The notes under the pieces are model-generated. The model was not told the DNA's origin. It searched no databases and worked only from the letters and a program-made list of their open reading frames with translations. A program made the position numbers and the translations under genes. Positions 35,264 to 47,211 of a stretch of DNA of 64,000 nt are shown here, one piece after another. The stretch is taken from positions 2,666,001 through 2,730,000 of the forward strand of contig NZ_JAUHQA010000001.1 in NCBI RefSeq assembly GCF_030418295.1. The letters run 5' to 3'. The DNA is from Demequina muriae. GTDB lineage: Bacteria > Actinomycetota > Actinomycetes > Actinomycetales > Demequinaceae. Every line of letters begins with the position of its first letter. Within the stretch, counting starts at the first letter, position 1.

Positions 35264-35269
35264 TAGCGT
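35264..35269 (+). promoter_or_regulatory. -10 hexamer TAGCGT for the methyltransferase gene
   Basis: TAGCGT lies 37 bases before ATG 35307, leaving a leader that contains AGGAG. Confidence 0.4.
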
Positions 35270-35306
35270 GCGATCACGTTCACATTCACGTCGACAGGAG
35301 TCCCCC

Positions 35307-36443
35307 ATGCCATCCACCCAGACCACCACCAGTACCCTCCACGCCGCCGATCCGGACGAGGCGATCGATGCCACTGCCGCCCCGACGGCCGAGGAGTTCG
35401 CCGACCGCGTCCTGACAGCGACGCTCGGCTGGGTCGAGATGATGTCGATCCACCTGGGCGATCAACTGGGCTGGTACGAGGTGCTCTCCCTGCACGACTC
35501 CATCACGGCGAGCGAGCTCGCGTTCCGCACGTCCTCCTCCACGCGCTATGCCCACGAGTGGCTCGAGCAGCAGGCGGCCTACGGCATCCTCGCGGTGGTC
35601 GAGACGGCCGATGCTCCAGCGAAGCGGCGCTATGCCCTTCCGTCAGGCGCGGCCGAGGTGCTCACCGACCGCAGAAGTCAGGCGTACATGGCGCCGATGG
35701 CACGGATTCTTGCCGCGGCGGCCGCGCAGATGCCTGCGCTGGTGGATGCGTACCGCGCCGGCACGGGAGTCAGCTGGGCCCAGTTCGGTGATCACGCGTG
35801 GCAGTCCCAGGCCGATCTCAACCGTCCTTGGCTCGGCGAGGTCCCCACCGTCTTCGCGCGTCACCAGCGGCTGCACAAGACGCTCTCAAGGCCAGGCGCG
35901 CGGATCGCTGACGTCGGGACCGGAGCGGGCTGGTCCGCGATCGCACTGGCGAAGGCGTACCCAGGACTGATGGTGGAGGGGTTCGATGTCGACGCTCCGT
36001 CGATCGAGGCCGCTCGCGCGCAGGCCGACCGTTCTGGCGTCGCCGACCGGGTGACCTTCCACCTCGCGGATGCGGCGAGTCTGGCTGACCATGGGTCGTT
36101 CGACGGCGTGGTCGCGTTCGAGTGCATCCACGACATGCCCGACCCCGAGAGCGTGCTGGAGGCCATGCGCCGAGCGGTCACCGCGGACGGCTTCGTGGTG
36201 GTCATGGACGAGGCAGTCGCGGAGGAGTTCGAGGCCGACGCCGGGCCCGTCGAGCGCTTGATGTACGGGTTCAGCCTATTCATCTGCCTCCCGGATGGTC
36301 TGTCGCACGAGACCAGCGCTGCGACAGGAACGGTGATGCGGCCGTCGACCCTGCGCCGCTACGCCACCGCAGCGGGATTCTCGGACGTCTCGGTGCTCGA
36401 GGATGACTTCGGGTTCTGGCGGTTCTACGACCTTCACCAGTAG
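35307..36443 (+). CDS. Class I SAM-dependent methyltransferase, Rv2258c-like with N-terminal winged helix
   Basis: 378 residues. The N-terminal ~130 residues form a winged-helix-like domain (ASELAFRTSSSTRYAHEWLEQQAAYGIL), followed by a Rossmann methyltransferase domain: GARIADVGTGAGWSAIALAKAYP is motif I, GFDVDAPSI the acidic loop, AFECIHDMPDP motif IV, and MYGFSLFICLPDG a family-specific strand. This is the layout of Rv2258c-like enzymes, which are structurally characterised but of unknown substrate. ATG 35307 follows AGGAG at six-base spacing. A closely similar paralogue sits at 46144-47211. The upstream inverted repeat suggests control by the neighbouring LuxR protein. Confidence 0.88.
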   Translation: MPSTQTTTSTLHAADPDEAIDATAAPTAEEFADRVLTATLGWVEMMSIHLGDQLGWYEVLSLHDSITASELAFRTSSSTRYAHEWLEQQAAYGILAVVETADAPAKRRYALPSGAAEVLTDRRSQAYMAPMARILAAAAAQMPALVDAYRAGTGVSWAQFGDHAWQSQADLNRPWLGEVPTVFARHQRLHKTLSRPGARIADVGTGAGWSAIALAKAYPGLMVEGFDVDAPSIEAARAQADRSGVADRVTFHLADAASLADHGSFDGVVAFECIHDMPDPESVLEAMRRAVTADGFVVVMDEAVAEEFEADAGPVERLMYGFSLFICLPDGLSHETSAATGTVMRPSTLRRYATAAGFSDVSVLEDDFGFWRFYDLHQ

Positions 36444-37029: not shown

Positions 37030-37194
37030 GTGAGGTGCAACCACCCGTCCTCGTGGAGTCTTCCCGAGGAAACCCATGGTTCGAGGCGGGCAATGCCACG
37101 GTGACGCACGCGAAATATCGGGACAACGTGGGGCGTTTCACCCCCATCGTCGATGAGCGCGGTCCGCGCGAGTCCCTCAGAATCGGAGACCACC

Positions 37195-38241
37195 ATGGCA
37201 CTCACCGCTGTCGCCCCCAGTGCAGTCCGCCTCCCCTTCGCCGATCGTGGTCCTGTCAGCGACGCCGTGATGCGTCACCTCAGCGGGTTGACGGACTTCG
37301 CGGATCACACGGAGCTGGCGAGACATGCGGTCGCCCGCACGCCAGACGCGTGTCGCGACGAGGACACCGCGCTTGCGCTGTTCGCGCTCTACGCCTCGTC
37401 GTACGGGTCGATCGGCCAGGTCGCCGCTGACCTGGAATGGGATGCCCGGCTGATCGCGACGCGACAGGTGCTGGAGGAGAGCCTCGAGAATGCGCTCCGG
37501 GCGACGGTGCCCGTGCCCGAGGCGCCCGCAGCTGACAAGGATGCAGTGTCCCGAGCGCTCTTCACACTGACCAAGCCGTCACCCGGACCGAGCCTGTCGC
37601 GTCACCTCGCCAAGAGGGCGACAGTGGAGCAGGCGAAGGAGTTCTTCGTGCAGCGCTCGGTGTACACCTTGCGCGAGGCGGACCCTCACTCGTGGGCCAT
37701 CCCCCGCCTCCACGGGCGCGCCAAGGCGGCGCTGGTGGAGATCCAGGCCGACGAGTACGGAGGCGGCAGGGCGGACCACATGCACTCGGCGATGTTCGCA
37801 GCGGCGATGCGCGGGATGGGCCTGGACGACTCGTACGGCGCCTACGTCGACGCCGTCCCCGCTCTCACGCTGACCTCTCACAACATGATGTCGATGTTCG
37901 GGATCAACCGGCGCCTGGTCGGGGCGATCGTGGGGCATCTCGCCGCGTTCGAGATGACGTCGTCGATTCCGAGCCGCATGTACGCGGACGGGCTGCGCCG
38001 GCTCGGATTCGGCACGGACGTCACGGACTACTTCGATGTCCATGTCGAGGCGGACGCGGTGCACGAGCAGATCGCCGGCCGTGATCTCGCCGGCGCACTC
38101 GCCGAGGATCGCCCAGAGGTGCTGAGCGACATCATGTTCGGCGCCGCCGCGTGCATGGCCGTCGACGGCTGGGTGGACGAGCACATCATGGAGGCATGGT
38201 CACGAGGCGACTCATCGTTGCGGACGGGGGTGCGCCTGTGA
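37195..38241 (+). CDS. Haem-oxygenase-like iron-containing redox enzyme
   Basis: 348 residues, all-helical. The metal-binding pattern of haem-oxygenase-like diiron oxidases is visible: KAALVEIQADEYGGGRADHMHSAMF gives Glu and His ligands on one helix, and EADAVHEQI supplies Glu and His on a later helix. Members of this family carry out oxygen-dependent reactions such as N-oxygenation or oxidative decarboxylation of small molecules. ATG 37195 has GGAGA five bases before it. GTGA overlap ties it to a CDGSH protein, a common partner for this family in actinobacteria that would supply electrons or iron-sulfur chemistry. Substrate unknown. Confidence 0.82.
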   Translation: MALTAVAPSAVRLPFADRGPVSDAVMRHLSGLTDFADHTELARHAVARTPDACRDEDTALALFALYASSYGSIGQVAADLEWDARLIATRQVLEESLENALRATVPVPEAPAADKDAVSRALFTLTKPSPGPSLSRHLAKRATVEQAKEFFVQRSVYTLREADPHSWAIPRLHGRAKAALVEIQADEYGGGRADHMHSAMFAAAMRGMGLDDSYGAYVDAVPALTLTSHNMMSMFGINRRLVGAIVGHLAAFEMTSSIPSRMYADGLRRLGFGTDVTDYFDVHVEADAVHEQIAGRDLAGALAEDRPEVLSDIMFGAAACMAVDGWVDEHIMEAWSRGDSSLRTGVRL

Positions 38242-38438
38242 AGGACGAGCGCCCCACGATCACGGCGTATCCCGACGGCCCCCTGCTGCTCCGAGGCGAC
38301 GTCGAGCTGGTGACCGCCGACGGCGAGCCGATCGAACGCCACCGCCCCACGGTCGCACTGTGCCGCTGCGGGCTGTCGGCGATCAAGCCGTTCTGCGACG
38401 GCACCCACAAGCTGTCGAACTTCCGCACTGAAGAGTGA
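38238..38438 (+). CDS. CDGSH iron-sulfur domain protein
   Basis: 66 residues. The single iron-sulfur motif is CRCGLSAIKPFCDGTH, matching C-x-C-x2-S-x3-P-x-C-D-G-x-H, which binds a redox-active [2Fe-2S] cluster through three cysteines and one histidine. No membrane anchor. It starts at GTG 38238, overlapping the stop of the iron oxidase gene by four bases, which strongly suggests a joint function as redox partner. Ends 63 bases before the flavin-dependent oxidoreductase gene. Confidence 0.93.
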   Translation: MKDERPTITAYPDGPLLLRGDVELVTADGEPIERHRPTVALCRCGLSAIKPFCDGTHKLSNFRTEE

Positions 38439-38501
38439 CGAACCCCGGTCGACCCCTCCCTCCTCGAGCGCCGTGGTGTCGTGAGGGGGTGGTCTCCCTC
38501 C

Positions 38502-39470
38502 ATGCGAGTCTCTCTTCTTGACCGGTCGCGCACGCGCATGGGCGAGAGCGATGCCGATGCGGTGACGACGACGGTGGAGCGTGCAGTCCGGGCCGACGCT
38601 CTCGGCCTCCATCGCTTCTGGACTGCCGAACACCACGCGGTGCCCGGCATCGCCAGCGCGGCACCCACCGTGCTCGTGTCCACGATCGCTGCCCGTACCC
38701 AGCGAATCCGCGTCGGCACGGGCGGCGTCATGGTGCCCAACCATCGTCCGCTGGTGATCGCCGAGCAGGCGCTGCTCCTCGAGGCCCTCCACCCCGGCCG
38801 GATCGACCTCGGGCTCGGAGGTTCCCTCGGCTTCACGCCCCCGATCCGGCGCGCTCTGGGGCGAGCAGGGATCGCCGAAGCCGAGTACGGCGCTGAGCTC
38901 GAGCAGGTGCGCGCCTACCTTGAGGGGAGCGCGGGGATCACGGCGAGGCCCCGCGTCGATCCGCCGCCCATGTACCTGCTCGCCGTGAAGGGCGGACTCG
39001 CCTGGGCTGCGCAGATGGGACTGCCGGCGGTCGTGGGTGGCCCGATGGTGCACGACACGGGCGCGATCGAGGCCTACTTCCGGACCTTCCGCCCGAGTGC
39101 TCAGCTGTCCACGCCGTACCTGATGGTGAATGTCGATGTCTCGATGGCCGATGACCCGGGCCACGCGCGCGACCTCCTGCTGCCAGAAGCCTGGGCCTAT
39201 GCCGACACACGTGACGTCGGGGAGTTCCGCCCGCTGCGCCCCGTCGAGGAGGTGAGGCGCCTCCTCGACATGGAACGCCGCGACAAGAAGCTGGCCGCCG
39301 TGCGCTCGTGGATGTCCGCGGCCGTCGCTGGCGCACCAGACCAGGTGGCTGCCGCACTGGCGGACCTGCTCGCACGCACTGGCGCCTCCGAGATCCTCGC
39401 GAACGTCAGCACTTACGACCGGGAGGACACCACGCGGACCGACGAGTTTCTCGCGTCACTGCACACCTAG
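38502..39470 (+). CDS. LLM-class flavin-dependent oxidoreductase
   Basis: 322 residues, a luciferase-like (bacterial luciferase family) barrel. The start region RVSLLDRSRTRMGESDADAV and LGLHRFWTAEHHAVPGIASAAP, then TQRIRVGTGGVMVPNHRPLVIAEQ, are the standard conserved blocks for this family and place FMN (or F420-type flavin) binding. The start is ATG 38502; an in-frame GTG at 38481 would add seven residues. AGGGGGTGG lies nine bases before the ATG. It follows the iron oxidase and CDGSH genes in the same direction (63-base gap), so all three may serve one oxidative pathway. Confidence 0.87.
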   Translation: MRVSLLDRSRTRMGESDADAVTTTVERAVRADALGLHRFWTAEHHAVPGIASAAPTVLVSTIAARTQRIRVGTGGVMVPNHRPLVIAEQALLLEALHPGRIDLGLGGSLGFTPPIRRALGRAGIAEAEYGAELEQVRAYLEGSAGITARPRVDPPPMYLLAVKGGLAWAAQMGLPAVVGGPMVHDTGAIEAYFRTFRPSAQLSTPYLMVNVDVSMADDPGHARDLLLPEAWAYADTRDVGEFRPLRPVEEVRRLLDMERRDKKLAAVRSWMSAAVAGAPDQVAAALADLLARTGASEILANVSTYDREDTTRTDEFLASLHT

Positions 39471-39538: not shown

Positions 39539-40576
39539 TCAGCCCGTCGTCGCCCCTCCGTCCGGCAGCACTGTCCGCAGCCGTGGCAGGAGCTCGTCGC
39601 CGTCGTCGCCTCGGATCACGGGGACGCCTTCGACGGACTCCTCGTCCTCTCCCACGCGCTTCAGTCCGGCTCGCCGGAGCACGATCGCCGCGACTCGGCC
39701 GGGATGCTCCCTTGCGGCTGCCAGGTAGATCTCCGGATCGTGCTCTCCGTCATCACCCACGAGCACCCAGGTGACGTGAGGAAGGTCCTCCATGAGCCGC
39801 TCGATCGATGACGCCTTGTGATGCTTCCCGTCGCGGAACCACCTGGTGGGCGTCACGCCCCAGTCGGTCATGAGCAGTGCACCAGCGGGGAACTCCTGGA
39901 GCTCGAGGAAGTGCGTCACTGCGCCCACGAAGTTCCACGGCCCGTTGCTCAGGTAGATCAGACCGGGATCGGGGTCGGCGCCCAGGGCTGTCCGCAACAG
40001 TTCAGGCATGCCAGGAACAGACTGCCGTGTCCCGCTCGTGCCGCGAAGGGTGCGCCACGCGGCACGGAACGGGTGGGCCAGGCCCGTCACCCATGCAGTG
40101 TCATCGATGTCACAGACGACGCCGCGCACCGGATCGGAGCTGATGGCGTGAACGCTCGCGGGCACCGTGTCCCGGCCGGGAAGCACGAGCTGCGCACGGG
40201 TGGTCCCCGGCCCGAGCGGGCTCTCCATGGCGATCAGCTGATCCACGATTCCGGACTCGTCGCTCGTCGCCACGACCGTGGTGTCCCCCAGGGTGATCTC
40301 GACCTCGGTATGGGGGCATTCCAGCGAGAGCAGGTGCCTCCATCCCCGCATTCCCTGACGAGCGTTCAGGTCGAAGGACGGAGGCGCAAGCACCACGCGC
40401 GCGAGCACTCGCGCCGTACCGCGGCTCGAGTAGCCCGAGTACGGGAGCACCGCGGGCGTCCACCCATTGCGCCGCGCGCGGCGCGAGAACCAGTCCCGGA
40501 CGCCGGTCTCGGTCCGATACGCCACGGAGATGGCTCTCGCGTTGAGGCGGGCCGTGAAGGTGCGGTCGGAGGACAT
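39539..40576 (-). CDS. App1-like phosphatidate phosphatase-domain protein
   Basis: 345 residues. The C-terminal half has the HAD-type nucleophile motif VVCDIDDTAWVTG (DxDxT/A), LIYLSNGPWNF, and LLMTDWGVTPTRWFRDGKHHKASSIE, followed by VLVGDDGEHDPEIY. These are the conserved features of the App1 catalytic domain (DUF2183), known in yeast as a phosphatidate phosphatase. The N-terminal part (to about residue 120) is a separate beta-rich domain. No signal peptide. ATG 40576 with TAGCGT six bases upstream suggests a leaderless transcript. It is divergent from the zinc-ribbon SDR gene. Confidence 0.87.
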   Translation of the reverse strand: MSSDRTFTARLNARAISVAYRTETGVRDWFSRRARRNGWTPAVLPYSGYSSRGTARVLARVVLAPPSFDLNARQGMRGWRHLLSLECPHTEVEITLGDTTVVATSDESGIVDQLIAMESPLGPGTTRAQLVLPGRDTVPASVHAISSDPVRGVVCDIDDTAWVTGLAHPFRAAWRTLRGTSGTRQSVPGMPELLRTALGADPDPGLIYLSNGPWNFVGAVTHFLELQEFPAGALLMTDWGVTPTRWFRDGKHHKASSIERLMEDLPHVTWVLVGDDGEHDPEIYLAAAREHPGRVAAIVLRRAGLKRVGEDEESVEGVPVIRGDDGDELLPRLRTVLPDGGATTG

Positions 40577-40588: not shown

Positions 40589-40658
40589 TGCGCGAGTGAC
40601 AACCATTGCCGAATCCGGGCCACGAATCGCGGGGCAGTCTGGTGACGGCGCCGGTCGG

Positions 40659-40671: not shown

Positions 40672-42192
40672 GTGCCTCCACCCCCTTCTCGCGCCTCCGT
40701 GCCGTCACGTCTCGACCCCAGCGACCTCGCGACGACGCTACGGGTGCTGGGGATGCTCGACGAGCTCGATGAAGCAGATCCGGACTTCACCACGGTGCGC
40801 AACGCCGCGGCCGGGATGATCAAGGCGGTGAAGCAGGCTCGTCGGCGAGAGCGCCGCGCGGCGATCTACTCCGCCGATTCAGCCGTGGTCGCCGCGACGG
40901 CGACGGGTGCCCCCGACCGGATCGATGACGAGACCCGGGGCCTCACGCTCTCCGCGCGCGCCGAGGCACCTGTGGCGGGGACCTTCGCCAAGCCCCGTCC
41001 GTGCTACATCTGCAAGCAGAAGTACTCGACAGTGGACGCGTTCTATCACCAGCTGTGCCCCGCGTGTGCGGAGACGAGCCACGCCAAGCGGCACGCCCGC
41101 ACCGACCTGCGGGGGCGGCGGGCGCTGCTGACCGGCGGTCGCGCCAAGATCGGCATGCACATCGCGCTGCGGCTGCTCCGCGATGGCGCCGACCTCACCA
41201 TCACCACTCGGTTCCCTCGGGATGCGGTCCGCCGCTTCGCCGCCATGGAGGACGCCGAAGAGTGGCTGCACCGCCTCACGGTGGTGGGCATCGATCTGCG
41301 TGACCCTTCGCAGGTGGTGGCGCTCGCCGAGTCGACCGCGGCGGCTGGACCTCTCGACATCCTCATCAACAATGCTGCGCAGACGGTGCGACGCTCCCCC
41401 GGTGCCTACGCGCCGCTCGTGGATGCTGAGTCCGCGCCGCTGGCCGATGGGCTCTGGCCAGAGGGGCACGGGCCCCGGCTGCTCACCTTCGGCCGGACCA
41501 AGGACGAGCACCCTCCTGGCATCGAGTCCGCCGTCGCGGTGCACCCGCTGCTCGCCTCCATCGAGCTCGCCGATGGCCCCACGGCGTCTGCGCAACGCCT
41601 CACCGATGCGGCGCTGGCGCCAGGTTCGTCGTCGCTGGCAAGGCTCGCGGACGGCAGCGCGATCGACGCGGGCGGGCTGGTTCCCGACCTTCACGACACC
41701 AACTCCTGGATTCATGGCGTGGGCGACGTCGACCCCCGCGAGCTCATTGAGGTGCAGCTGTGCAACTCCACGGCTCCGTTCATCCTCATCAATCAGCTGC
41801 GGCCGCAGCTGGCCGCAGCGGCCCAGCGAGACGCGGACGGCCGCAGCTACGTGGTCAACGTCTCAGCCATGGAGGGGGTGTTCGGGCGCGGCTACAAGGG
41901 TCCAGGACACCCCCACACCAACATGGCGAAGGCCGCGCTCAACATGCTGACGCGCACCAGCGCCCGGGAGATGTTCGAGTCGGACCAGATCCTCATGACG
42001 AGCGTCGACACCGGCTGGATCACGGATGAACGTCCGCACCCCACCAAAGTGCGGCTCGCCGAGGAGGGCTTCCACGCGCCCTTGGATCTCGTCGACGGCG
42101 CCGCGCGCGTCTATGACCCAGTGGTGCGAGGTGAGACGGGCGAAGACCTGTTCGGGGTGTTCCTGAAGGACTACGAGCCCTCGCGCTGGTGA
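40672..42192 (+). CDS. SDR-family protein with N-terminal zinc-ribbon-like domain
   Basis: 506 residues, far longer than a normal 250-residue SDR. A helical N-terminus (1-95) is followed by a four-cysteine cluster CYICKQKYSTVDAFYHQLCPAC (Cys pairs 16 residues apart), a likely zinc ribbon. The Rossmann part begins ALLTGGRAKIGMHIALRLLRDGA, with NNAAQ further on. A long insertion of ~125 residues lies between NNAAQ and the active-site strand VNVSAMEG. At the Tyr-xxx-Lys position the sequence is TNMAK, so the catalytic tyrosine appears to be Thr. The enzyme may bind NAD(P) yet not act as a classical dehydrogenase. GTG 40672 has a TAGAAT seven bases before it. Confidence 0.8.
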   Translation: MPPPPSRASVPSRLDPSDLATTLRVLGMLDELDEADPDFTTVRNAAAGMIKAVKQARRRERRAAIYSADSAVVAATATGAPDRIDDETRGLTLSARAEAPVAGTFAKPRPCYICKQKYSTVDAFYHQLCPACAETSHAKRHARTDLRGRRALLTGGRAKIGMHIALRLLRDGADLTITTRFPRDAVRRFAAMEDAEEWLHRLTVVGIDLRDPSQVVALAESTAAAGPLDILINNAAQTVRRSPGAYAPLVDAESAPLADGLWPEGHGPRLLTFGRTKDEHPPGIESAVAVHPLLASIELADGPTASAQRLTDAALAPGSSSLARLADGSAIDAGGLVPDLHDTNSWIHGVGDVDPRELIEVQLCNSTAPFILINQLRPQLAAAAQRDADGRSYVVNVSAMEGVFGRGYKGPGHPHTNMAKAALNMLTRTSAREMFESDQILMTSVDTGWITDERPHPTKVRLAEEGFHAPLDLVDGAARVYDPVVRGETGEDLFGVFLKDYEPSRW

Positions 42193-42608: not shown

Positions 42609-44195
42609 ATGACCCACGAGCCTGACCCGTCGCTCGACCATCCGCCCCTGAGCACTCCTTTCGGTTCAGAACCGGAGGTCCGGGCCATCCCTGACGCCGA
42701 TGGTCAGACACCGCTCGTCCTCGTGCTGGGTGCGTCCGGATACATCGGCGGACGGCTTGTGCCTCGACTCCTCCAAGGGGGGTACCGGGTACGCACCCTC
42801 TCGCGCTCCGCCGCCCGGATCGAAGCGATGCCGTGGGGGGATGACGTCGAAGTGGTCGAGGGCGACGCAGCCGACGCTGAGGCCATGGATCGCGCCATGG
42901 CCGACGTCGAGATCGTGTATGTCCTGGTCCATTCGATGTCGAGTGGCAAGGACTACGGACGCCTGGACCGCGCCATCGCTATCAACGTGGCGCTCCACGG
43001 CGCCGCGCACAAGGTCGCTCGGTTCATCTATCTGAGCGGGCTGCACCCGGACCACGTCGAGCTCTCGCCGCACCTCGCCTCCCGAAAAGAGGTGGGCGAC
43101 ATTCTTCTCGCATCCGCCGTTCCGACCGTGGTGCTCGAGGCGGGGGTGGTGATCGGCGCAGGCTCCGCATCATTCGAGATGATCCGTCACCTCACCGAGG
43201 TGCTCCCGTACATGCCTGCGCCGCGATGGGTGCGAAACTCCATCCAACCCATCGCTGTCAGGGATGTGCTCTACTACTTGCTCGCCGCTGCTCGCGTCGA
43301 GGAAAGCACCAATGGAACCTTCGACATCGGCGGTCCGGACGTCATGCTGTACTCGGAGATGATGAACGGCTACGCGGCCGAGGCGGGGCTGCCGCAGCGG
43401 CACATCACAGCGCTGCCCGTGCTCACCCCGGGCCTCGCATCGCATTGGGTCGGACTCGTCACTCCTGTGCCGCGCCAGATCGCGCGGCCGCTGGTGGAGT
43501 CGCTGCTGCACTCGTGCGTGGTCGAAGACGACGCCATCGATGACCTGATCCCGCCGCCACCGGAGGGGCTCACCGGCTACCGCGAGGCAGTGCGCTGGGC
43601 GCTCGGCCGCATGGAGCTCGATCAGGTCGAGACCAGCTGGGTGGATGCGCGCGTGACGGGCGCCCCCAGCGACCCGATGCCCAGCGACCCCGACTGGACC
43701 GGGCGCACAGTGTTCGAGGACTCGCGACGCAAGGAATCCGGCGCGTATCCGGCGGCGGTCTGGAAGGTCATCTCGCAGGTGGGCGGTGCTACCGGTTGGT
43801 ACTCCGCCTCCGTGCTGTGGGCCACACGCGGGCTCATCGACCGGTTGTCTGGCGGGGTGGGTCAGCGCCGCGGGCGCCGCGGCTTCGGGAGCGTCAAGGT
43901 GGGCGACGCGATCGACGTCTGGCGCGTGGAGCGCGTCGACCCGGGCCGGTTGCTGCGGCTGCGGGCGGAGATGCGCGTCCCGGGCGCTGCGTGGCTCGAG
44001 CTCGGAGTGAACCCCACGGACGAGGGCTCCGAGTACTGGCAGCGCGCCGTCTTCTTCCCCCGCGGGCTCACGGGACGCCTGTACTGGCTGTCGATGCTGC
44101 CGTTCCACGGGCTGATCTTCAGTGGAATGGTCAACCGAATCGTCGCGATCGCAGAGGACGAGGCTGAGGATGAGGCGGCCGCAGCGGCCGTGTAG
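42609..44195 (+). CDS. NAD(P)-binding protein with C-terminal DUF2867 (SRPBCC-like) domain
   Basis: 528 residues. The first ~290 form an NmrA/extended-SDR Rossmann fold (LVLGASGYIGGRLVPRLL, YVLVHSM, FIYLSGL, QPIAVRDVLYYLL, FDIGGPDVMLY). The remaining part is the DUF2867 lipid-binding-like domain (VGDAIDVWRVERVDPGRLLRLRAEMRVPGAAWLELGV; LYWLSMLPFHGLIFSGMVNRI), a hydrophobic-pocket fold. This fusion is common in bacteria and of unknown substrate; it may process a lipophilic compound. ATG 42609 follows AGGAGAA at six-base spacing. An acidic Glu/Asp/Ala tail ends it. Confidence 0.87.
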   Translation: MTHEPDPSLDHPPLSTPFGSEPEVRAIPDADGQTPLVLVLGASGYIGGRLVPRLLQGGYRVRTLSRSAARIEAMPWGDDVEVVEGDAADAEAMDRAMADVEIVYVLVHSMSSGKDYGRLDRAIAINVALHGAAHKVARFIYLSGLHPDHVELSPHLASRKEVGDILLASAVPTVVLEAGVVIGAGSASFEMIRHLTEVLPYMPAPRWVRNSIQPIAVRDVLYYLLAAARVEESTNGTFDIGGPDVMLYSEMMNGYAAEAGLPQRHITALPVLTPGLASHWVGLVTPVPRQIARPLVESLLHSCVVEDDAIDDLIPPPPEGLTGYREAVRWALGRMELDQVETSWVDARVTGAPSDPMPSDPDWTGRTVFEDSRRKESGAYPAAVWKVISQVGGATGWYSASVLWATRGLIDRLSGGVGQRRGRRGFGSVKVGDAIDVWRVERVDPGRLLRLRAEMRVPGAAWLELGVNPTDEGSEYWQRAVFFPRGLTGRLYWLSMLPFHGLIFSGMVNRIVAIAEDEAEDEAAAAAV

Positions 44196-46143: not shown

Positions 46144-47211
46144 ATGTCCCCACTCACTCATGCGCCCGCGGACGAATGGGCGGAGCACGTCTTCGCCTCA
46201 GCTCTCGGCGCCATCGACACCCTCGCGATCCACCTCGGCGACCGCCTGGGCTGGTACCGCGCCCTCGCGGAGGCAGGGCCTCTCACCGCGGACCAGCTCG
46301 CCGAGCGCACGGACACGTCCGCGCGGTACGCCCGCGAGTGGCTCGAGCAGCAGGCCACGTCCGGCTTCGTGGACGCCACCGATGACGAGCCGATGCGCTT
46401 CTCTCTTCCCGCAGGCGCGGCGGAGGCGCTCACGGATGAGCGCTCGCTCGCCTTCATCGCTCCGCTCGCGCGCATGCTCGCCGCATCGGCCGCCCAGATG
46501 CCCGCGCTGCTCGAGGCCTACCGCACCGGGGGCGGTGTGAGCTGGGACCAGATGGGAGACGACGCCCGCTGGTCTCAGGCGGACATGAACAGGCCGTGGT
46601 TCGAGAGCATGCTCGCGGGAGCCCTGGAAGGCGCCGCGGACCTTCACGACATCCTGGACCGGCCCGGCGCGCGCATCGTCGACGTGGGATGTGGCGCCGG
46701 ATGGTCAGCCATCGCTCTCGCGCACGCCTACCCCCAGGCCACTGTCGTCGGGGTGGATATCGACGCACCGTCGATCGCGCGGGCGCGGACCAACGCGGAG
46801 CAGGCGGGCGTCGCGCCCCGGGTCACCTTCCACGTAGGAGACGCCAGCACGCTCGCCGGGTCCTTCGACGCGGCGTTCGTGTTCGAGGCCGTGCACGACA
46901 TGTCGCAGCCCGTCGCGGTGCTGCGCGCGATCCGCCGGTCGGTGGTGCCGCACGGCGCGGTGGTCGTCATGGACGAGGGAGTGGGCGACGCACCCGTGGC
47001 GGTCGGCGACGACGTCGAGCGGCTCATGTACGGGTTCAGCCTCTTCGTGTGCCTGCCGGACGGGCTGTCGTCGCAGCCGTCGGTCGGCACGGGCACCGTG
47101 ATGCGACCGTCCACGCTTCGCAGCTACGCGCAGGAGGCCGGCTTCAGCGACATGTCCGTGCTGCCCATCGAGGACTTCTCGTTCTTCCGGTTCTACCGGC
47201 TGCACCACTGA
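46144..47211 (+). CDS. Class I SAM-dependent methyltransferase, Rv2258c-like (paralogue)
   Basis: 355 residues, clearly paralogous to the protein at 35307-36443: shared stretches include IHLGD(R/Q)LGWY, REWLEQQA, AAQMPAL, GAGWSAIALA, DIDAPSI and MYGFSLFVCLPDGLS, and both end with a RFY(R/D)LH(H/Q) tail. Motif I is VDVGCGAGWSAIALAHAYP, and HDMSQPVAVL holds the motif IV region. The winged-helix N-terminal domain is present but lacks the longer N-terminus of the other copy. No LuxR gene lies nearby, and the upstream DNA lacks the CATGCA repeat, so regulation appears to differ. ATG 46144 has GGAAGGG ten bases upstream. Confidence 0.88.
   Translation: MSPLTHAPADEWAEHVFASALGAIDTLAIHLGDRLGWYRALAEAGPLTADQLAERTDTSARYAREWLEQQATSGFVDATDDEPMRFSLPAGAAEALTDERSLAFIAPLARMLAASAAQMPALLEAYRTGGGVSWDQMGDDARWSQADMNRPWFESMLAGALEGAADLHDILDRPGARIVDVGCGAGWSAIALAHAYPQATVVGVDIDAPSIARARTNAEQAGVAPRVTFHVGDASTLAGSFDAAFVFEAVHDMSQPVAVLRAIRRSVVPHGAVVVMDEGVGDAPVAVGDDVERLMYGFSLFVCLPDGLSSQPSVGTGTVMRPSTLRSYAQEAGFSDMSVLPIEDFSFFRFYRLHH

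Follow-up and report, generated by a model that had tools for sequence, protein, structure and literature searches.

Replacement of the catalytic Ser and Tyr across an aligned family of zinc-finger-like SDR proteins

The 506-residue protein described here is encoded in a 64,000-nucleotide stretch of Demequina muriae DNA (hereafter the window, meaning the whole of that stretch). It belongs to a zinc-finger SDR family in which, as judged from sequence alignment, both the Ser and the Tyr of the catalytic triad are replaced family-wide and the Lys and the tetrad Asn are retained. Residues that define SDR chemistry are gone despite the label "SDR family NAD(P)-dependent oxidoreductase", which is carried by the two plasmid copies that have an annotated gene in the records opened. 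Our first choice among the possible explanations, to which we give a probability of a little under one half (about 0.48), is an SDR that depends on NADP(H) and remains active in redox chemistry, with its acid displaced or supplied by the substrate. A large and strictly conserved family with two of the three triad residues replaced provides a clean test between displaced-donor catalysis and a sensor.

Table 1. Features of the window protein and of the two members found in a viral collection
Feature	Position	Strand	Remarks
Whole CDS, 506 aa	40672..42192	+	GTG start; TGA stop 42190-42192; coding 40672-42189
N-terminal helical extension, residues 1-100	40672..40971	+	Helices 16-31 and 37-75 predicted
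Four-Cys motif C111xxC114-x14-C129xxC132	41002..41067	+	Predicted hairpin, then helix 130-140
Cofactor motif T154-G-G-R-A-K159-I-G161	41131..41154	+	TGxxxKxG replacing TGxxxGxG
NNA motif N233-N234-A235 (SDR beta-4)	41368..41376	+	125/125 each; agrees with the classical SDR motif
Inserted segment, residues 238-343	41383..41700	+	Between beta-4 and alpha-E; Tyr246 near its start
Tyr246, candidate replacement acid	41407..41409	+	125/125
Asn365, tetrad Asn equivalent	41764..41766	+	125/125; falls in the Asn column of SDRs
Ala399, at the catalytic Ser position	41866..41868	+	By profile alignment; Ala 125/125
Glu401, two residues past the Ser position	41872..41874	+	125/125
H413-P-H-T416-N-M-A-K420, rewritten Y-x-x-x-K region	41908..41931	+	H413, T416, N417, and K420 125/125
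Distant member L124	7-1293 of retrieved stretch		IMGVR_UViG_2687453458_000001, 41799 bp; stretch G+C 0.44
Distant member L125	2956-4059 of retrieved stretch		IMGVR_UViG_2724679205_000004, 20904 bp; stretch G+C 0.38

Fold, cofactor motif, and four-Cys module

The open frame reaches back to a TTG at position 40606, and the true start of the ORF may therefore lie upstream of the GTG listed in Table 1. Pfam adh_short (PF00106) matches residues 151-238 only (E 8.1e-14; bit score 52, cut-off 26.6), and the second half of the SDR domain is probably left unmatched because of the long insert located 3' of the NNA motif. An AlphaFold2 model of the protein was built from 60 aligned sequences (mean pLDDT 78.6, pTM 0.79), and VIA aligned its residues 142-500 with tropinone reductase II (Z 21.2, rmsd 3.0, 230 aligned), with many SDRs tied. 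A model of L125 (368 residues; 51 sequences, mean pLDDT 71.3) was likewise aligned with SDRs by VIA (Z 22.6, rmsd 3.6, 223 aligned). SDR-fold proteins, including enoyl and dienoyl reductases, made up the best 50 of 1970 Foldseek matches and, for each model, the best 50 entries of 1000 chains compared by VIA. By profile and predicted structure, the protein thus has the fold of the SDR superfamily. Sequence matches in the PDB (the best 60 of 79 and the best 60 of 225) were to general SDRs and mostly covered the N-terminal half, and no relative with the same architecture occurred among the PDB, Foldseek, and VIA matches listed, all of which were SDR-fold proteins. NCBIfam models at E up to 1 (best 25 of 162) were all far below their cut-offs, and a PADLOC profile search up to E 0.1 gave no match to the protein. 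Among the top matches in the open-licence literature, judged by title and the start of the abstract, no study of the family was recognised, and the searches made returned no assigned function, activity, ligand, or solved structure of a member.

The classical cofactor motif TGxxxGxG is absent from the window protein, which has TGGRxKIG instead, and T154, G155, G156, R157, K159, I160, and G161 are each kept in 125/125 aligned members. The FabI-type motif Gx5SxA is also absent (the window sequence reads T154GGRAKIGMHIAL). Pteridine reductase has the cofactor motif TGxxxRxG, a parallel to the TGxxxKxG found here, and an Arg after beta-2 marks a preference for NADP(H) in SDRs. Arg180, located after beta-2, and the basic Lys159 in the Gly-rich loop suggest that NADP(H) would be the cofactor bound.

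An earlier note on this DNA had pointed to a CxxC...CxxC cluster ahead of the SDR fold. The cluster is indeed present (C111/C114/C129/C132), and each of the four Cys residues is kept in 125/125 members, including the shortest, L125 (368 aa). The module is predicted to be zinc-finger-like, its hairpin leading into a helix in the manner of zinc fingers, and it would form a structural zinc site that is part of the family core. In Pfam searches, DUF2039 was matched by 3/3 pieces containing the module (E 0.0011, which is the best match of the window protein's piece, 0.046, and 0.058), all below the cut-off; for the L125 piece, DUF5817 and Zn_Tnp_IS91 outscored DUF2039 (E 0.012, below the cut-off too). 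When the module alone was searched against the PDB, the best E was 0.4. The N-terminal extension is much reduced in L112 and missing from L125 as translated, and the N-terminal piece gave one sub-cut-off Pfam match, phiKZ_IP (E 0.0007).

Distribution, selection, and surroundings

The zinc-finger SDR family is widespread in bacteria and patchily spread in Actinomycetota, with members also in Deinococcus. Six short peptides scanned against one genome per species returned at least 594 stretches, at least 592 of which encode a relative, and the best 80 were kept. Among these best 80 of at least 592 relatives, the nearest named ones are from Demequina (81% identity). Genome-level sampling of presence covered Actinomycetota; in whole-genome searches at E 1e-40 or better, the gene was found in 31 of 47 genomes from the taxonomic family of the window and in 37 of 396 drawn evenly from the phylum. 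The window's genome contains a single copy, and four further matches there are confined to about 100 residues in the Rossmann part.

Four plasmid records match the zinc-finger SDR, one of them from Deinococcus, and the distant members L124 and L125 are located on two viral-collection contigs. These contigs may represent proviral cargo or misfiled chromosome pieces. No relatives were present in the phage records searched. When the viral collection was scanned with a degenerate DNA pattern encoding HTNMAKA, five stretches were retrieved, two of which were the contigs already known, and the other three encoded no relative at tblastn E 1e-3.

In total, 126 members were gathered (window included) and one exact duplicate was dropped, leaving the 125 that were aligned. 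Most of these are closest relatives by construction of the search; the real test of conservation is provided by nine distant members (L112, L115-L119, L121, L124, and L125) with about 36-48% identity to the window protein. L121 (3399-4472, genome G023) is a second copy, 48% identical, whose genome contains a close copy (L122) as well. A tree of 38 members was accompanied by warnings of long branches meeting, and no claim made here rests on it.

Comparison of the window gene with a copy of 95% identity gives 117 synonymous codon differences and 23 that alter the amino acid, and dN/dS amounts to 0.056 by NG86 (0.0223/0.400) or 0.030 by YN00 (0.0203/0.667). These codon differences indicate that the protein is under strong purifying selection. 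The patchy presence in the two genome samples could be expected of a degenerate, functionless SDR remnant, but that explanation is hardly credible, as it is contradicted by a dN/dS of about 0.03-0.06 and by invariant residues across distant lineages.

Neighbouring ORFs, called with a custom-made, GC-biased caller that is weak for low-GC loci, were clustered across the window and 122 loci, 123 stretches in all, with flanks that mostly measured 3 kb and were shorter in some. The gene itself was called in 120 of the 123 stretches and the next largest cluster was present in 15. As no cluster besides the gene itself exceeds this count, the neighbourhood names no pathway. Gene neighbourhood was also rejected as a clue to substrate or pathway from the side of the window, since none of the other clusters listed (at least 4 loci) includes a window gene.

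Within the window, the genes at 37153-39470 constitute a small redox cluster upstream of the zinc-finger SDR gene. More specifically, an iron-containing redox protein (37153-38241, +; PF14518 Haem_oxygenas_2, E 7.9e-59) overlaps a small ORF (38151-38438, +) ending in a CDGTH stretch that we take to be CDGSH-like, and a luciferase-like monooxygenase follows (38481-39470; PF00296, E 2.9e-30). An APP1-type phosphatidate phosphatase catalytic domain (39539-40576, -; PF09949, E 2.3e-42) is encoded divergently from the SDR gene, and an NmrA-like Rossmann protein (PF13460, E 5.6e-17) with DUF2867 (PF11066, E 9e-35) lies downstream on the same strand (42609-44195, +). Two similar ORFs about 10 kb apart, 35268-36443 (391 aa) and 46144-47211 (355 aa), both on the + strand and presumably methyltransferase-like, have GARI-DVG-GAGWSAIALA in common by eye.

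Catalytic positions and the inserted segment

For profile-profile alignment, 12 members were set against 14 ordinary SDR ORFs (13 used by the program), which were obtained from the window's genome and the loci as 24 matches minus duplicates and unfitting lengths. This alignment (probability 99.3, E 2.6e-20, 192 columns) places the canonical Tyr at Thr416, the Lys at Lys420, and the tetrad Asn at Asn365, and HTNMAKAALN is aligned gap-free with YAASKEAV of ordinary SDRs. The canonical Ser is placed at Ala399, an assignment that depends on gap-free pairing of the strand N-V-S-A-M-E-G with N-F-A-S-E-A-G, where a slip of one residue would give the preceding Ser398 (Ser in 124/125, Thr in L121). The earlier reading of TNMAK at the Tyr-xxx-Lys position, with the catalytic Tyr missing, is borne out: position 416 is Thr in 125/125 members, which settles the question then raised of whether Thr is conserved, and homologues with a normal Tyr, which would have spoken against that reading, number 0/125. 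His415 is kept in 118/125 (Asn in 7), Met418 in 118/125 (Ala in 7), and Lys409 in 125/125. Among the ordinary SDR controls, YxxxK is present in 12/14 ORFs, the other two being two readings of one YxxxN gene, and all 13 control genes retain the Tyr. In the window's genome, an SDR gene with YxxxN replacing YxxxK was observed on C1 near 1283360 (L082/L133).

The earlier note had also allowed for a Tyr-xxx-Lys placed elsewhere in the active site. The window protein has none, as neither YxxxK nor Yx6K to Yx8K occurs anywhere in it, but a YxxxK does lie in the catalytic loop of 5/125 members and may reach the site there. Past their own residue 120, 21/125 members have a YxxxK, at the C-terminus (501) in 10, in the four-Cys module (112) in 3, behind the Lys420 helix (435) in 2, at Tyr246 in 1 (L125), and at 405-409 in 5 (L115-L119); Yx6K is present in 3/125 (L116 and L118 at 405, L117 at 370). 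In L115-L119, which are five of the nine distant members and come from genomes of the same phylum, Tyr405-xxx-Lys409 is located 11-15 residues before the usual Lys and off the canonical columns, and the proton donor may therefore differ between clades. As a canonical pair of the family it was rejected (5/125, one group only). Tyr408 was rejected as a replacement Tyr, being kept in 116/125 but in 0/9 distant members.

Could the protein simply be an ordinary SDR with a misaligned loop, in which another Tyr/Lys pair of the catalytic loop takes the canonical role? This loop exceeds the usual length and its prediction is poor, with pLDDT below 50 in both models (401-428 in the window protein, 265-278 in L125), and such a pair might be sought in the invariant Lys409, the Tyr405-xxx-Lys409 of L115-L119, or the frequent Tyr408. 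However, the remaining 120 members have no Tyr at position 405, Tyr408 is replaced in every distant one, the window protein is devoid of YxxxK and of Yx6K to Yx8K, and the alignment around TNMAK is free of gaps; we regard this explanation as very improbable. In the L125 model, Thr and Lys lie in one helix that starts directly after the first His.

The insertion in the SDR fold that the earlier note described is real and family-wide, although its size of about 125 residues was a slight overcount for this protein, in which Q237 and N344 enclose 106 residues (family range 53-137). The distance between NNA and Thr416 is 183 residues, whereas NNA and Tyr are 65-69 apart in ordinary SDR ORFs, a spacing taken from the 9/14 in which both motifs were found. 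The insertion gave no match in a Pfam search, and its pLDDT falls below 50 at 278-291 and 296-300. Glu253, Asp332, and Asp339 are each kept in 124/125, and the insertion probably shapes the substrate pocket. It is also conceivable that the insertion supplies the missing Tyr, with Tyr246 folding over the active site and replacing the Tyr hydroxyl. Tyr246 is the sole Tyr kept in 125/125 outside the four-Cys module (Tyr501 is kept in 120/125), and it lies 11 residues past NNA, a motif bordering the SDR active site. However, the insertion is mostly variable in length and sequence and is in part poorly predicted, and we consider this role of Tyr246 improbable.

The missing Tyr, the four-Cys module, and the insertion, which prove to be family-wide, had been taken earlier as possible signs of a sensor or scaffold. 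In such a protein, the SDR domain would respond to the NADP(H)/NADP+ state, with a partner bound by the zinc finger and the insertion. This would agree with the replacement of both the Ser and Tyr positions in 125/125 members, with a four-Cys module that is invariant even in the 368-aa member, and with the finding of no fixed metabolic neighbours in the 123 stretches (flanks mostly 3 kb). Contrarily, the strictly kept Lys420 and Asn365 and the invariant polar residues on the substrate side would be needless for a pure cofactor sensor, no neighbour cluster recurs frequently enough to mark a partner, and other SDRs without the Tyr (SimC7 and eugenol synthase) are working enzymes according to the available parts of their descriptions. 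A sensor or scaffold is possible but rather unlikely, and it is not our first choice because Lys420, Asn365, Glu401, His413, Thr416, and Asn417 are invariant.

Together with the basic Lys159 and Arg180, the retention of Lys420 and Asn365 and the invariance of polar residues close to the site favour a reaction with NADP(H) in which the proton donor is displaced, the explanation that we prefer. In such a reaction, Lys420 would hold the nicotinamide ribose, and a different catalytic-loop residue would donate or accept the proton. By analogy with FabI, the most likely candidate is His413, which sits at Lys420 minus 7, where FabI-type divergent SDRs have their catalytic Tyr. Alternatively, the proton could pass through Glu401 or come from the substrate itself, as in SimC7. 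Against an active enzyme, it must be noted that a retired one would likewise be expected to have neither the Ser nor the Tyr. We further propose, tentatively and with more doubt than confidence, that the family constitutes a separate SDR class with an Ala-Thr-Lys triad, in which His413 acts as the general acid helped by Glu401 and the zinc finger is an obligatory part of the fold.

Comparison with known SDR systems

The zinc-finger family shares the Rossmann fold, the NNA motif, the Asn, the Lys, and the order of elements with classical SDRs (FabG, tropinone reductase, PF00106). Unlike them, it has Ser replaced by Ala and Tyr by Thr, a TGxxxKxG motif, an insertion of about 106 residues, and an N-terminal four-Cys module. 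In mitochondrial 2,4-dienoyl-CoA reductase, Ser-xxx-Lys replaces Tyr-xxx-Lys and a Tyr is located two residues after the Ser position. That Tyr corresponds to Glu401 here, and the zinc-finger family therefore differs in having Glu rather than Tyr, in addition to the four-Cys module and the insertion.

In the available text of PMC9260719, FabI-type SDRs are characterised by Yx2(x)Mx3K and carry Phe or Tyr in place of the Ser. Like the FabI/InhA enoyl-ACP reductases as described there, the zinc-finger family lacks a Ser at the Ser position and has a candidate acid at Lys minus 7. Unlike them, it has His rather than Tyr at Lys minus 7, no Gx5SxA, and both a four-Cys module and an insertion; H413-x6-K420, with Thr416 at Lys minus 4, departs from Yx2(x)Mx3K. 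The canonical SDR motifs given in the available portion of PMC3144213 are YxxxK, YxxMxxxK, and YxxxN, and positions 416 and 420 of the zinc-finger family match none of these three. If His413 and Glu401 do act as proposed, their active site may lie outside all of them.

The absence of canonical residues does not preclude activity in other SDRs. Triad mutants of E. coli FabG remain active (PMC7973133, in the part available), and eugenol synthase, which has no catalytic Tyr, relies on its Lys (PMC1991597, in the excerpt available). SimC7, which is without the triad Tyr and Lys, reduces a ketone, and substrate assistance has been proposed in the accessible part of its description (PMC5039031). Neither SimC7 nor eugenol synthase is described with a zinc module in these partial texts. 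Like the zinc-finger family, both lack the catalytic Tyr, yet both are active SDR enzymes by the same accounts; SimC7 retains the Ser and loses the Lys, and the zinc-finger family shows the reverse.
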